Assembly (NCBI GenBank): GCA_001800285.1
Contig: MGVC01000068.1
Location: 1-51,072, forward strand
Reading direction: 5' to 3'
From: Elusimicrobia bacterium RIFOXYA2_FULL_39_19
Lineage (GTDB): Bacteria > Elusimicrobiota > Endomicrobiia > CG1-02-37-114 > XYA2-FULL-39-19
DNA: 51,072 nucleotides
Shown: positions 685-36,993 of the stretch, piece by piece
How the letters are laid out: the number at the start of each line of letters is the position of its first letter
Position numbering within the stretch: position 1 is the stretch's first letter
Notes under the pieces: model-generated
What the model was told of the DNA's origin: nothing
Databases searched by the model: none
The model's input: only the letters and a program-made list of their open reading frames with translations
Made by a program: the position numbers and the translations under genes

Positions 685-3588
685 ATGAAAAAAACAAAAA
701 AATCTGAAAATTCAGGCGTGCAATCAGACCAGAGGCTGAAAGAGGCACTCCGGGAGCGCATGAAAGAACTCAGCTGTATGTATTCTTTTTCAAAACTTAT
801 TGAAAGTTCAGGAGATGATTTTGAAAAGATTTTAACCGGACTCGTTGAGCTGATTCCTCCTGCCTGGCATTATCCGCAGGATACTTGCGCCAGAATAGTT
901 TATGAAGGAGATATATATAAAACCAAAAATTTTAAAAAGGGACGTTTTAAACTGACGGCAGATATTAAAGTAAACAAAAAGAAAGCCGGCATTATTGAAG
1001 TCTATTATTTAAAACCAAAATCCCCGGAAGCAAAAGGCCCGTTTCTTAAGGAAGAACAGAAACTGCTTGAAGTTTTAGCCCAAAGGCTTGGTAAGGCCGC
1101 ACAAGAGATCTGCGTCAGCAGGCTCTTAGAAGAGAAAAATATACACCTTAACGCTTTAAACCAGCAGCTTAGAGCTTCTAATGAGGAATATTACGCCGCC
1201 AATCAGCAGTTAAGGGCAGCCGAACAGCAGTTAAGGGCCGCCAACCAGGAATACTCCGCCTCCAACGAGGAGTTAAGAGCAACTGAGCAACAGCTAAGAG
1301 CTGCAGCCCAGCAGTTAAAGGCCGCCGAAAAAGAAATTTTAAACAAACAGTATTTCCTTGAGAGCATGATAAATACAGCCCAGGCCATTATTTTGGTTTT
1401 AAGCCCGGCAGGCAAAATTATATCCATTAATCCTTTTATGGAAAAGATATCGGGTTATAGACAGGAAGAGGTAAAAGGTAAAGACTGGGTTACCACTTTT
1501 CTGCCAGAAGGTGACCGCAATAAAATAAAGGAACTGTTTAAAAAGGCCATGGGTAATGTTCAGACCAAAGGAAACATAAACCCTATTCGCACAAAAGACG
1601 GCCGGCAATTACATATTCAATGGTACGATAAAACGCTGAAAGATAGAAGTGGAAAAACTATTGGATTGCTTTCTTTAGGCCATGATATTACAGAATACCG
1701 CGTATTAGAACTGGAAATGAAACATCTGGCTTCATTCCCGCAGTTAAACCCCAATCCGGTAATTGAGGTAGATAGGGCAGGAAAGGTATTATTCACAAAT
1801 GATGCTGTTGAAAACATTCTTCGCCAAATGGGTTTAAAGGACCCTAAATTATTTATTCCGGGAAACTTTAAGGATTTGGAAAATGAATTAAAAAATCACT
1901 CTGTTACAGGAGAAGTGCAGATAAAAGACCAGGTATTTTCCTCTATTATGTATTATACCCCGGAGTTTGATACTTTTAGAATCTATGCCATTAATATAAC
2001 CCAGGACAAAAAAAACAGGGAAGCTCTTAAAGAAGCGGAAGAAAAATACCGGATTTTGTTTGAAACGATGGCCGAAGGAGTTGTGTATCAGGATGCACAA
2101 GGTAAAATTATCATGGCAAACCCCAGCGCGGAAAAACTGCTGGGCCTTACCTTTGAACAGCTGCAGGGCAGAAAATCCATAGACCTGCGCTGGAAATCAA
2201 TTCACGAAGACGGTTTGGCTTTTCCCGGGGAAACGCACCCGTCCATGACAGCGCTTAAAACAGGTAAAAAAGTCAACGATGTAATCATGGGAGTCTTCAA
2301 TCCACAAAGTAATTCCTATAAATGGTTAAACATAAACGCAGTACCAATATTTATAAAAGAAGAAACAGTTCCTTGCCTGGTATATACAACCTTTGCGGAT
2401 ATTACTGAACGTAAAAAAGCCGAAGAGGAAAAAGAAAAAATGCAGTTACAGTTTTTACAGTCCCAGAAAGCGGAAGCCGTAGGCACGCTGGCGGGCGGCA
2501 TAGCCCATGATTTTAATAATCTCCTGACAGTAATTCTAGGCAATTCAAAGCTTGCAAAAAAAATAGCAAAACCAGACAGCGATACAATTGTATTTATAAA
2601 TGAAATAGATATTGCCGCCCAGCGTGCCGCAACGCTGACCAACCAGCTCCTGCTTTATACCAGAAAACAGCCCATGGGTATGTTTCCCTTAAATGTTAAC
2701 AATACAATTAACCAAACCTTAACCATAATTCAAAGGCTTGTAGGCGAAGACATAAAAATAGATCTGAGCCTGGATTCTGCTGTTTGGGTTGTGAAAGCCA
2801 ATGAATCCAATATACAGCAGTTACTTACAAACCTATGTGTTAACTCCAGGGATTCAATGCCCGAAGGCGGAGTTATAACCATAAAGTCTGAAAATGTGAT
2901 ATTAAGCGAAGAACAAAGCCGGGTTATGGCAGAGGGGAAACCCGGAGCTTACGTGTGCATTTCTGTTATGGATACGGGTATTGGTATGGATAAGGAAACT
3001 TTAGTGCAGATTTTTGAACCGTTTTTTACAACCAAAAGAATAGGCAAAGGCACCGGATTGGGTTTATCCGTTGCGTACGGTATTGTTAAGTCGCATAACG
3101 GCTGGATAAATGCTTATAGCGAACCCGCTAGTGGGGCCATTTTTAAAATTTATCTGCCTTCTATTGAAGAAAAGTGTATTCCTGTACCTGTTAAAGAAGC
3201 AGACCTTGATGATTTGAAGGGTTCAGGAGAGAATATTTTGATAATAGAAGATGAATTCCAGGTTCTTAACTATATTAAAGAGATGCTGGAAAAAAATGGT
3301 TACTTTGTGTTTTCTGCAGGTAATTCCAAAGATGCAATAAGCATCTTTGGAAAACATTCAGAAAAGATAAATACCATTGTCTGCGATATGATCTTGCCTG
3401 ACAGAAATGGCCTGGAAACTGTAAAACTGCTTAAAAAAATAAAAGAAAATATTTCAGTAATATTCTGCAGCGGTTATCTGGATGATAAATCCAGATACCA
3501 GCAGATTCAGGAAAAAGGTTACAGTTTTATACAAAAACCGTTTGAAATAGAGGTTTTACTGAAGCTGATAAAAGAAAAAAATAATTAA
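685..3588 (+). CDS. hybrid sensor histidine kinase with GAF-like, three PAS and a receiver domain
   Basis: A 967-aa signalling kinase with no membrane segment, so probably cytoplasmic. The order is a GAF-like N-terminal region (about 25-145), a Gln/Ala/Glu-rich coiled coil of repeated heptad-like units (about 150-220), PAS domains near 225-345, 345-440 and 450-580, HisKA with phospho-acceptor His608 in GGIAHDFNN, HATPase with NLCVNSRDS, DTGIGM and GTGLGLS (about 700-825), and a C-terminal receiver. The receiver keeps acidic Glu855-Asp856-Glu857, phospho-acceptor Asp901 and Lys951. AAGAGG precedes the ATG. Position right after cheD suggests a shared sensory role, but no output partner is next to it. 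Confidence 0.93.
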   Translation: MKKTKKSENSGVQSDQRLKEALRERMKELSCMYSFSKLIESSGDDFEKILTGLVELIPPAWHYPQDTCARIVYEGDIYKTKNFKKGRFKLTADIKVNKKKAGIIEVYYLKPKSPEAKGPFLKEEQKLLEVLAQRLGKAAQEICVSRLLEEKNIHLNALNQQLRASNEEYYAANQQLRAAEQQLRAANQEYSASNEELRATEQQLRAAAQQLKAAEKEILNKQYFLESMINTAQAIILVLSPAGKIISINPFMEKISGYRQEEVKGKDWVTTFLPEGDRNKIKELFKKAMGNVQTKGNINPIRTKDGRQLHIQWYDKTLKDRSGKTIGLLSLGHDITEYRVLELEMKHLASFPQLNPNPVIEVDRAGKVLFTNDAVENILRQMGLKDPKLFIPGNFKDLENELKNHSVTGEVQIKDQVFSSIMYYTPEFDTFRIYAINITQDKKNREALKEAEEKYRILFETMAEGVVYQDAQGKIIMANPSAEKLLGLTFEQLQGRKSIDLRWKSIHEDGLAFPGETHPSMTALKTGKKVNDVIMGVFNPQSNSYKWLNINAVPIFIKEETVPCLVYTTFADITERKKAEEEKEKMQLQFLQSQKAEAVGTLAGGIAHDFNNLLTVILGNSKLAKKIAKPDSDTIVFINEIDIAAQRAATLTNQLLLYTRKQPMGMFPLNVNNTINQTLTIIQRLVGEDIKIDLSLDSAVWVVKANESNIQQLLTNLCVNSRDSMPEGGVITIKSENVILSEEQSRVMAEGKPGAYVCISVMDTGIGMDKETLVQIFEPFFTTKRIGKGTGLGLSVAYGIVKSHNGWINAYSEPASGAIFKIYLPSIEEKCIPVPVKEADLDDLKGSGENILIIEDEFQVLNYIKEMLEKNGYFVFSAGNSKDAISIFGKHSEKINTIVCDMILPDRNGLETVKLLKKIKENISVIFCSGYLDDKSRYQQIQEKGYSFIQKPFEIEVLLKLIKEKNN

Positions 3589-5135: not shown

Positions 5136-5217
5136 GCACCCTCCTTTGTTAGCATGATTTAAATAAACGTAACTATTTGTTACATTTAAATCAATAACTT
5201 CGGAAGGGCAAGCAGAG
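5136..5217. repeat. repeat family A, uninterrupted copy
   Basis: About 82 bp beginning GCACCCTCCTTTGTTAGC and ending GGAAGGGCAAGCAGAG. It is an imperfect palindrome: GATTTAAAT...GTAAC pairs with GTTACATTTAAATC in the centre and the ends pair loosely. A second copy at 36731-36947 is split by a B element, which makes this copy the reference empty site. Confidence 0.75.
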
Positions 5218-7057: not shown

Positions 7058-7065
7058 CGCTTTTT

Positions 7066-7247
7066 GAAGCTCCACGCCTTCACAGGCGTGGGCACAAGCC
7101 TGATTCACGGCGCAGGAACAAATCCTACGCTTAAATACCCGAAGCGGACAATCGCTATCCATATACGGCTTACCGCTGAGGTATCCAGTATCATTTAAAT
7201 AAAAGGAAGAAACTGGATAAATCATGGATTTCCGCGAAGGGTGTTAA
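7066..7247 (-). repeat. repeat family B, copy 1 (reverse orientation)
   Basis: Reverse complement of the B unit at 10483-10660. Shared blocks are the end hairpin CCACGCC-n-GGCGTGG, the CTTCGGGTATTT block, a nested ATCCAG...CTGGAT hairpin and the AACACCCT...GCGGAAATCC end. It reaches the last codons of lemA, so the lemA 3' end may lie in the repeat. Confidence 0.8.
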
Positions 7248-7810
7248 AAATTTACATTAGGTACTGTTTTTGCCGCTTCTTCTGATTTGAAGTAGGCTTC
7301 TTTAGGCGTACGTCCTGCCATAGAAGCAACTATTTTGCTTGGAAAACTTTTTACCAGAACGTTATAAGACTGTACCAGCTGGTTATAACGTTGTCTTTCT
7401 ACTGCTATGCGGTTTTCCGTTCCGGCCAATTCATCCTGCAGGCGGATAAAATTTTCGTTGGCTTTTAACTGCGGATAATTTTCGGCTATCATCAAAAGGC
7501 GGGAAATGGCGCCGTCTAATTCACCGGTTGCTTTAGCTTTATCGTTTGTGGTTTTTGCGCCGGCAAGCTTGGCCCGGGCATCGGCAATATTGGTAAAGAG
7601 TTCTTTTTCATGTTTTGCATAGCCTTTTACGGAATTTACCAGGTTTGGTATAAGGTCAAGACGTCTCTGGTACTGGTTTTCTACCTGCGCCCACGCGCCT
7701 GTTATGCCTTCATCAAGAGAAACGAACCTGTTATAATAGGAAACGTACATTCCTGCTATAATTACTATCACTGCCACTACCGAACCTAAAATTATCCAAC
7801 CTTTTTTCAT
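7244..7810 (-). CDS. lemA: LemA family membrane-anchored protein
   Basis: The 188-aa product has an N-terminal transmembrane helix (about 5-27), then the highly conserved LemA sequence: YYNRFVSLDEGITGAWAQVE, NQYQRRLDLIPNLVNSVKGY, coiled helices, ENRIAVERQRYNQLVQSYN and an FPSKIVAS-like segment. LemA proteins are helical, envelope-facing proteins of unclear function. The ATG at 7808-7810 is preferred over longer forms because GGAGGTTGTT directly precedes it; the longer frame runs into repeat C. It is monocistronic here and lacks the TPM-domain neighbour often seen with LemA. Confidence 0.92.
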   Translation of the reverse strand: MKKGWIILGSVVAVIVIIAGMYVSYYNRFVSLDEGITGAWAQVENQYQRRLDLIPNLVNSVKGYAKHEKELFTNIADARAKLAGAKTTNDKAKATGELDGAISRLLMIAENYPQLKANENFIRLQDELAGTENRIAVERQRYNQLVQSYNVLVKSFPSKIVASMAGRTPKEAYFKSEEAAKTVPNVNF

Positions 7811-7843
7811 AACAACCTCCATAAAGTTTAAACGGCAGCAGAA

Positions 7844-8009
7844 TTCCACGGGCTCTGCCCGTGGATGAAAGCGTGTGTGACGTTTACCCCTGCGATAGTT
7901 TTCAAATTGTTTTTTTATGAGTAATATCCAGATATCCTATTGTAAAAGGATAAATCAGGATTGAAAACTGCATGGGGTAGGTGTTTGTGTCACGGGCTCT
8001 GCCCGTGGA
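7844..8009. repeat. repeat family C, copy 1 (MITE-like palindrome)
   Basis: About 165 bp bounded by two copies of the hairpin CCACGGGC-TCT-GCCCGTGG. Inner arms also match in inverted orientation (TTTACCCCTGCGATAGTTTTCAA against GGATTGAAAACTGCATGGGGTAG, with mismatches). The whole is one large imperfect palindrome in the gap between the divergent lemA and perR genes. Relatives occur at 33547 and 33664. Confidence 0.75.
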
Positions 8010-10482: not shown

Positions 10483-10660
10483 AACACCCTCCGCGGAAAT
10501 CCACGGTTATCCAGTTTTTTCCTTTTATTGAATGATACTGGATACCTACCCGGTAAAGTCGTGGATGTATAGCGTTCGTCCGCTTCGGGTATTTCAGCGT
10601 AGAGCTTGTTCCTGCGCTGTAGATAAGGCTTGAATCCACGCCTGTGAAGGCGTGGAGCTA
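10483..10660 (+). repeat. repeat family B, copy 2 (full length)
   Basis: About 178 bp from AACACCCTCCGCGGAAATCC to GGCGTGGAGC. It contains three hairpins: ATCCACGG..CCGTGGAT-like around the centre, the nested ATCCAG...CTGGAT unit (about 10508-10543), and CCACGCC-TGTGAA-GGCGTGG at the end. Copies are at 7066 (reverse) and 36756; the latter lacks the nested ATCCAG hairpin. This unit accounts for most of the gap between the ferritin-like and cupin genes. Confidence 0.8.
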
Positions 10661-10725
10661 CAATATAGGCGGTTGATAAATCAACCCGCTACAAAAAATT
10701 AAACAGTGCTGTGAACAATAGGCTT

Positions 10726-23864: not shown

Positions 23865-24041
23865 GGCGCTCGGAAATATTCCTTTTCCGGCCTGTTAACA
23901 GACAGGTAAAAATACTAGCTTGTGATTTGCAAAGGAACATTTTCTCCAAAAAACGTTCGCTTTGAGGCTCACTCTACCGGCGGCTGCGGGTAGCGTCCTT
24001 GCTACCGCATATAAAAAGAGAAAGCAAGGGCATCGTAATTG

Positions 24042-27207: not shown

Positions 27208-27412
27208 GTTCAAAAATGTGCTTTACGAAAAACGTTCGCTTTGCGGCTCACTCTATTGGTGACTGCGGGTAGCGTCCTTGCTACCGCTTATAAAAAGAGA
27301 AAGCAAGGGCTCCGGGGTTTGTAAAGGTCGCTGCCGTCCCGATGATTTCCTTTTACATGTGGATATCGGGATGCCTCTCGGCAAGAGGTTTTCTTCAGAA
27401 ATGTTCCTTCGC
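27208..27412. repeat. repeat family E, copy 5
   Basis: GTTCAAAAATGTGCTTTACG and AAAAACGTTCGC, then a 47-bp stretch nearly identical to E copy 2 (TGCGGGTAGCGTCC, TTGCTACCGC, AAAAAGAGAAAGCAAGGGC), and the ending CAAGAGGTTTTCTTCAGAAA and TGTTCCTTCGC. It ends 64 bp before the next gene. Confidence 0.7.
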
Positions 27413-33546: not shown

Positions 33547-33755
33547 ATATGGTTTCATCTTGCTTAAAAAGATGAAACCATATGTGTGTGACGGTTATCC
33601 CAGCGGTTTGATTTAGCTGATGTGTTATAGATAAATCAGCAAGGGATAGAAGGCTGCTGAGCCTGCAATTATTTTTGCAGGTGAAAGCGTGTGACGGTTT
33701 ACCCTTGTGTTCAAACCCCTTTATCCAGACATCTTTGAAACAGGGATAAATCATT
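33547..33755. repeat. repeat family C, copies 2 and 3
   Basis: Copy 2 starts with a perfect 14-bp hairpin (ATATGGTTTCATCT/AGATGAAACCATAT, 33547-33583) followed by GTGTGTGACGGTTATCCC. Copy 3 starts with CTGCAA-n-TTGCAG (33664-33680) followed by GTGAAAGCGTGTGACGGTTT and ACCCTTG, then ATCCAGA...GGATAAATCA. Both match C copy 1 at 7844 in the GTGTGACG-TTTACCC block. The first hairpin may also act as a transcription stop for the outer-membrane gene, though it lacks a T run. Confidence 0.65.
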
Positions 33756-33928
33756 TGCTAATCCTTCATTTCCTAACATATTCGTTTTTCTGGATAAAGC
33801 TTTCGCTTTAACATTTTTGTTCACAGGATATCGTTTTCACTTGCTTTCCTTTTTATATAATGACGCAAGTGCGCTACCCGCAGCACTTTATCCCAGCGGT
33901 TTGATTTAGCTGATGTGTTATAGATAAA
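33595..33928 (+). repeat. pair of identical 41-bp direct repeats before the glycosyltransferase
   Basis: The same 41 bp (TTATCCCAGCGGTTTGATTT...TTATAGATAAA) occurs at 33595-33635 and 33888-33928. The second copy ends four bases before the glycosyltransferase ATG and forms its leader. The 392-bp interval holds no other gene. TATAAT at 33856-33861 with TTTTCA 16 bp upstream is a weak promoter candidate. Confidence 0.75.
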
Positions 33929-36730: not shown

Positions 36731-36947
36731 GCACCCTCCTTCGTTAGCATGATTTAACACCCTCCGCGGAAATCCACGGTTATAAAGCCGTGGATGGATA
36801 GCGTTTGTCCGCTTCGGGTATTTCAGCGTAGAGCTTGTTCCTGCGCTGTAGATAAGGTTTGAATCCACGCCTGTGAAGGCGTGGAGCTTCAAATAAACGT
36901 AACTATTTGTTACATTTAAATCAATAACTTCGGAAGGGCAAGCAGAG
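36731..36947. repeat. repeat family A, copy 2, interrupted by a B element
   Basis: Left half GCACCCTCCTTCGTTAGC to GATTTAA (36731-36757) and right half AAATAAACGTAACTATTTG to AGCAGAG (36891-36947). Without the insert they rebuild the copy at 5136 with one or two mismatches. The junctions show AA on both sides, compatible with a 2-bp duplication. Confidence 0.8.
36758..36890 (+). mobile_element. repeat family B, copy 3, inserted in repeat A
   Basis: A 133-bp B unit from CACCCTCCGCGGAAATCC to GGCGTGGAGCTTC. It lacks the nested ATCCAG...CTGGAT hairpin found in copies at 7066 and 10483. It keeps the end hairpin CCACGCC-TGTGAA-GGCGTGG. The uninterrupted A at 5136 proves that this block is an insertion, so B is or was mobile, probably in trans because it has no ORF. 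Confidence 0.8.
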
Positions 36948-36993
36948 AAAGAGAATACAGAGAAAGAAGTTTTCGGGGGTTATCAGTACTTAT

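Follow-up and report, generated by a model that had tools for sequence, protein, structure and literature searches.

Hairpin-rich repeats resembling the two ends of an IS200/IS605-type element in an Elusimicrobia genome

Single-strand transposons of the IS200/IS605 group find their sites through short guide sequences inside the element. IS608 inserts 3' of the tetranucleotide TTAC, which is kept in the left flank, and ends in TCAA; both sites are chosen by pairing with the guides AAAG and GAAT, each located at the 5' foot of a hairpin (PMC5934647), and site selection has been ascribed to linear and cross complementarity (PMC8266576). Elements reduced to such ends are already on record. The palindrome-associated transposable elements (PATEs) of the archaeon Haloquadratum walsbyi are non-coding, have palindromes near their ends, no terminal inverted repeats, no target duplication and IS605-like boundaries, and some come from identified IS605-type transposons (PMC3119063). 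In bacteria, a PATE-like, ends-only IS605 remnant of 271 nt was described in Halanaerobium hydrogeniformans, present as a single copy in a genome that holds related IS605 elements (PMC7290912). REP/BIME sequences, served by TnpA_REP, are intergenic hairpins of 20-50 nt with a 5' tetranucleotide, mostly GTAG, and are cut at CT or CA (PMC8266576).

Here we describe a repeat, B, found in a stretch of 51,072 nucleotides (the window) of the source genome, G000. Like the H. walsbyi PATEs, B is non-coding, has palindromes near both ends and lacks terminal inverted repeats and target duplication; its boundaries are IS605-like in their guide and cleavage motifs, but no parent transposon was found for it. 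It also differs from the single H. hydrogeniformans element in having about 20 copies. As in IS608, the insertion point lies 3' of a tetranucleotide that remains in the left flank; the right end TCAA and its guide GAAT are identical to those of IS608, and the left pair TTAC and AAAG is identical in some relatives of B. B differs from IS608 in that it has no tnpA or tnpB, uses the target TTAA with the guide AAAT and carries its left hairpin inside a longer lower stem. With REPs it shares intergenic hairpins preceded by a tetranucleotide and a genome containing Y1 enzymes, but its guides are of the IS608 type and its left and right ends are both defined. B is neither an autonomous member of the IS200/IS605 group nor a REP. 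We consider it very probable that B is a transposase-less IS200/IS605-type element, thus a PATE, made up of only two element ends and moved in single-stranded form by a Y1 transposase acting in trans. This kind of element is already known, since PATE-like elements have been reported in bacteria; what is added here is the B family itself, its three natural specificities and a host genome in which no IS200-type TnpA was found.

Insertion of B into the A repeat

Alignment of the filled and empty sites shows B as a hairpin-rich repeat of 135 bp at 36758-36892 (+), splitting another repeat, A, into a left portion at 36731-36757 (+) and a right portion at 36893-36961 (+; right boundary approximate). 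The filled site reads GCATGATTTAA, followed by CACCCTCCGCGG...GGCGTGGAGCTTCAA and then ATAAACGTAAC, and the empty site at 5136-5217 (+) reads GCATGATTTAA joined directly to ATAAACGTAAC. At the junction itself, GATTTAA is followed by CACCCTCC...GAGCTTCAA and ATAAACG when filled, and the sequence is GATTTAAATAAACG when empty. Taking B out restores A in the form seen without interruption at 5136 and also on contigs C82 and C54. The original prediction that B was inserted into A, with 5136 as the empty site, is thus borne out by the alignment and by two further empty A copies. Its B unit of 133 bp needs to be extended to 135 bp, because the AA of the terminal TTCAA is part of the element's own right end. 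It had also noticed AA at both borders; this dinucleotide does occur at both, but it is not a duplicated target: on the left it closes the target TTAA, and on the right the cleavage motif TCAA. Comparison of the empty and filled sites reveals no target duplication at B. The A repeat is an imperfect palindrome of about 80 bp within ACACAGAG-like sequence, with four copies in the genome (window 5136-5217 and 36731-36961; L021, about 1480-1570; L022, about 1500-1575, minus strand).

Genome-wide searches recovered about 20 B copies in G000, complete or broken by contig ends. Their flanks are unrelated, which excludes segmental duplication as the origin of the copies and argues that B spread by insertion. 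Contigs C11, C36 and C57 start within or beside a B copy, as expected of an interspersed repeat. The searches found no B in two other genomes of the same family, and exact-pattern scans of genome contigs and viral contigs gave no B match. Besides the short form at 36758, the window holds two long forms, one of 179 bp at 10485-10663 (+), which carries a nested hairpin module, and one of 180 bp at 7064-7243 (-), which starts directly past the TAA stop of an open reading frame at 7244-7849 (-). At 135-180 nt, B is too short for a transposase and has no coding capacity. Contig C50 carries two like-oriented copies from different subfamilies, separated by about 70 bases (L107, 6652-7077, minus strand). 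Two loci considered as autonomous elements were rejected: L050 (1505-1632), located directly past a stop codon, is a B copy whose right half was deleted between short repeats (GCGT), and L055 (contig C14, 380-600, minus strand) is a divergent element with the same left hairpin and nested module as B (80-88% identical), its ends and interior being different.

End hairpins, guides and target sites

B has no terminal inverted repeats, its left end CACCCTCCGCGG and right end ...GGCGTGGAGCTTCAA being unrelated, and palindromes lie near both termini. In the 36758 copy (all features on the plus strand), the left hairpin CCACGG/CCGTGG at 36774-36793 is enclosed by a lower stem (ACCC/GGGT and GCGGA/TCCGC), an internal hairpin occupies 36824-36848, and the right hairpin CCACGCC/GGCGTGG at 36865-36884 is followed by AGC and TTCAA. 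Five helices are conserved among the copies; two-sided pair changes are confined to the left hairpin (4 pairs), the other helices being conserved with little covariation. Folded as single-stranded DNA, this copy reaches -33.7 kcal/mol, whereas shuffled versions average -17.4 (z = -5.4).

The left hairpin contains a variable module, and in this sense B is modular, as had been proposed. A nested ATCCAG...CTGGAT hairpin of about 45 nt is present in the left loop in 10 of 17 aligned copies and absent from the other seven, among them the 36758 copy, in which its absence had been correctly noticed. The nested hairpin is an optional module that extends the loop of the left hairpin. Outside G000, the left loops of relatives are mostly short (for example, GTGTAAA), which suggests that the module was gained in the G000 lineage. 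It is also found at the same position in the divergent element L055; clear matches are confined to B-type elements, and independent mobility of the nested hairpin is thus unsupported. In another genome of the phylum, G091, the B-type elements L139-L156 carry additional nested palindromes, both in the left end and in the interior, and form a strongly modular family.

Among aligned copies, B begins 3' of TTAA, with TCAA in two cases and ATAA in one; three copies carry one extra A at the start, and B ends in TCAA. In the 36758 copy, the left site TTAA is retained in the flank at 36754-36757, and the right site TCAA at 36889-36892 is the 3' end of the element. The tetranucleotides at the 5' feet of the two hairpins are AAAT on the left (predicted guide, 36770-36773) and GAAT on the right (predicted guide, 36861-36864). 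Our reading of the published IS608 pairs gives a rule by position, in which the fourth bases of site and guide are complementary and the other positions are read likewise; the published role of linear and cross complementarity in site selection (PMC8266576) supports this reading. Applied to TTAA and TCAA, this rule predicts AAAT and GAAT, exactly the tetranucleotides of B.

A covariance model of B found relatives in G206, G339, G340 and G091, four further genomes that belong to the phylum; the last of these has many more partial B-type copies by DNA search. In G000, the sites are TTAA/TCAA and the guide base is T. In G206, G339 and G340, they are TTAC/TCAC with guides AAAG and GATG (guide base G), and in G091 they are TTAT/TCAT with guides AAAA or AATA on the left and mostly GATA on the right (guide base A). 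One G340 element has TCAT with guides AAGA and GATA, and L157 of G339, whose left end was read by eye, also fits the rule: both of its ends have TCAA, and its guides are AATT and GATT. At the left ends, which were collected with a pattern that allowed any base at position 4, site and guide base 4 are complementary in 24 of 24 cases across genomes and three target types (rows L040 and L048 being one copy seen through overlapping loci). At the right ends, base 4 is complementary in every element checked by hand, the 7064 copy excepted; hand-anchored rows were used here, as the hairpins picked by script at L139, L141 and L158 were spurious. As copies within a genome share descent, this covariation is better counted by lineage, which gives about five lineages at two ends instead of dozens of independent cases. 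Immediately 3' of the left hairpin, the A of GGATGAAT stays constant while the guide base varies; simple pairing across the foot of the hairpin thus does not account for the guide base.

It is this covariation of IS608-type guides with cleavage sites that gives B the look of a pair of IS200/IS605-type element ends, and the clean insertion, together with IS200/IS605 'address' sequences at the ends, points to a stripped-down mobile element that needs a borrowed transposase. We propose the following course: a Y1 (HUH) transposase acting in trans would bind both subterminal hairpins on one DNA strand; AAAT would pair with the target TTAA on the left, and GAAT with the end TCAA on the right, thus setting the cut positions; the B strand would leave the donor site as a single-stranded circle; and the circle would be inserted 3' of another TTAA or TCAA with no target duplication. 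We infer the single-stranded mechanism, the trans-acting enzyme and the time at which B moved. As an ends-only single-strand transposon family across the phylum, in which guide bases follow the target, B lends evolutionary support to the IS608 guide rule.

The mobilising enzyme and the REP-type reading

The G000 assembly is 97.8% complete in 86 contigs. It contains no IS200-type TnpA at the threshold used, and no TnpB. It encodes five Y1 proteins, and each of the four that were scanned has the REP-associated family as its nearest match, two of them falling slightly below the cut-off of that family. This inventory would suit an origin of B as a REP/BIME-type repeat moved by a REP-associated Y1 transposase of G000, as the original prediction had suggested, especially as REP tetranucleotides can also serve as guides (PMC8266576). 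We nevertheless regard such an origin as unlikely. The two short Y1 genes (L033 on contig C25 and L034 on C60) adjoin hairpins preceded by GTAG, the usual REP tetranucleotide, whereas the hairpins of B lack GTAG and carry AAAT and GAAT, which covary with the cleavage sites, and B has two distinct ends instead of a short hairpin cut at CT or CA. A GTAG-type palindrome at window 10664-10695 directly follows the B copy at 10485. Three Y1 transposase-like proteins (L030, L031 and L032, on contigs C71, C66 and C78) are about 335 aa long, and inverted repeats, GGGGACGT.../...ACGTCCCC, border their genes; L030 and L031, the two of the three that were scanned, have a DnaA-C-like C-terminal match.

For B as an ends-only IS200/IS605-type element, the search for a matching transposase gave only Y1 proteins of REP-associated type in G000, none of them seen with B ends. 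No B ends were found at IS200 TnpA loci of the class, nor B-like ends at the Y1 loci fetched from G091, G206, G339 and G340, where the hairpins are unlike those of B. An autonomous element sharing the B ends was not found, though the guide and cleavage motifs match IS608. With neither IS200-type TnpA nor TnpB in G000 and no Y1 locus with B-like ends, the mobiliser may have been lost, may be unassembled or may be one of the REP-type Y1 proteins of G000. It is conceivable, though we give it a low probability, that two-ended IS608-like elements in genomes of the phylum lacking any IS200-type TnpA are moved by REP-associated-type Y1 proteins; if so, such movers of B would tie 'domesticated' RAYT enzymes to two-ended transposition with naturally re-targeted guides.

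Gene-end placement, strand and neighbouring repeats

Five of 18 B copies start directly past a TAA stop, compared with about 2% of non-coding TTAA/TCAA sites (370 kb), in a post hoc test with crude ORF calls. These copies start exactly at the last base of the stop, at window 7243, L095 11607, L098 10150, L102 4049 (minus strand) and L110 10007. This placement and the five conserved helices would fit a transcribed structure at gene 3' ends, or a remnant resembling a guide RNA, with mobility secondary, and TnpB reRNAs do arise from the right end of such elements (PMC8612924). However, G000 has no TnpB, there is no T-run past the right hairpin and little covariation outside the left one, and in Rfam the window yields no family at the gathering threshold, while a relaxed threshold elsewhere brings up nothing beyond chance-level matches; we thus hold such a main role to be very improbable. 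As TTAA contains TAA, a simple reading is that insertion past a stop codon leaves the gene intact, which makes stop codons natural, harmless docking sites. A DNA-transposon MITE that duplicates 2 bp of its target (AA for B, AC or AT for its relatives) is likewise very improbable, for although the same two bases do precede the element and close its right end in each lineage, terminal inverted repeats are absent and the dinucleotide is fixed per lineage, changing jointly with internal guide bases at both ends, as an arbitrary target would not.

B lies on the G-rich strand in 18 of 21 copies (p 0.0015), a bias that is weaker when intergenic DNA alone is considered (16 of 21, p 0.027). For an IS200/IS605-type element, this is as predicted by insertion into the lagging-strand template; it is confounded with gene direction, since most copies also follow a co-oriented gene, and we take it as supportive only.

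The window also contains other palindromic repeats, of the GCGGGTAGCGTCCTTGCTACCGC type, at 23983-24018, 27263-27297 and 33849-33884, and two identical 41-nt direct repeats at 33595-33635 and 33888-33928, 293 bases apart.
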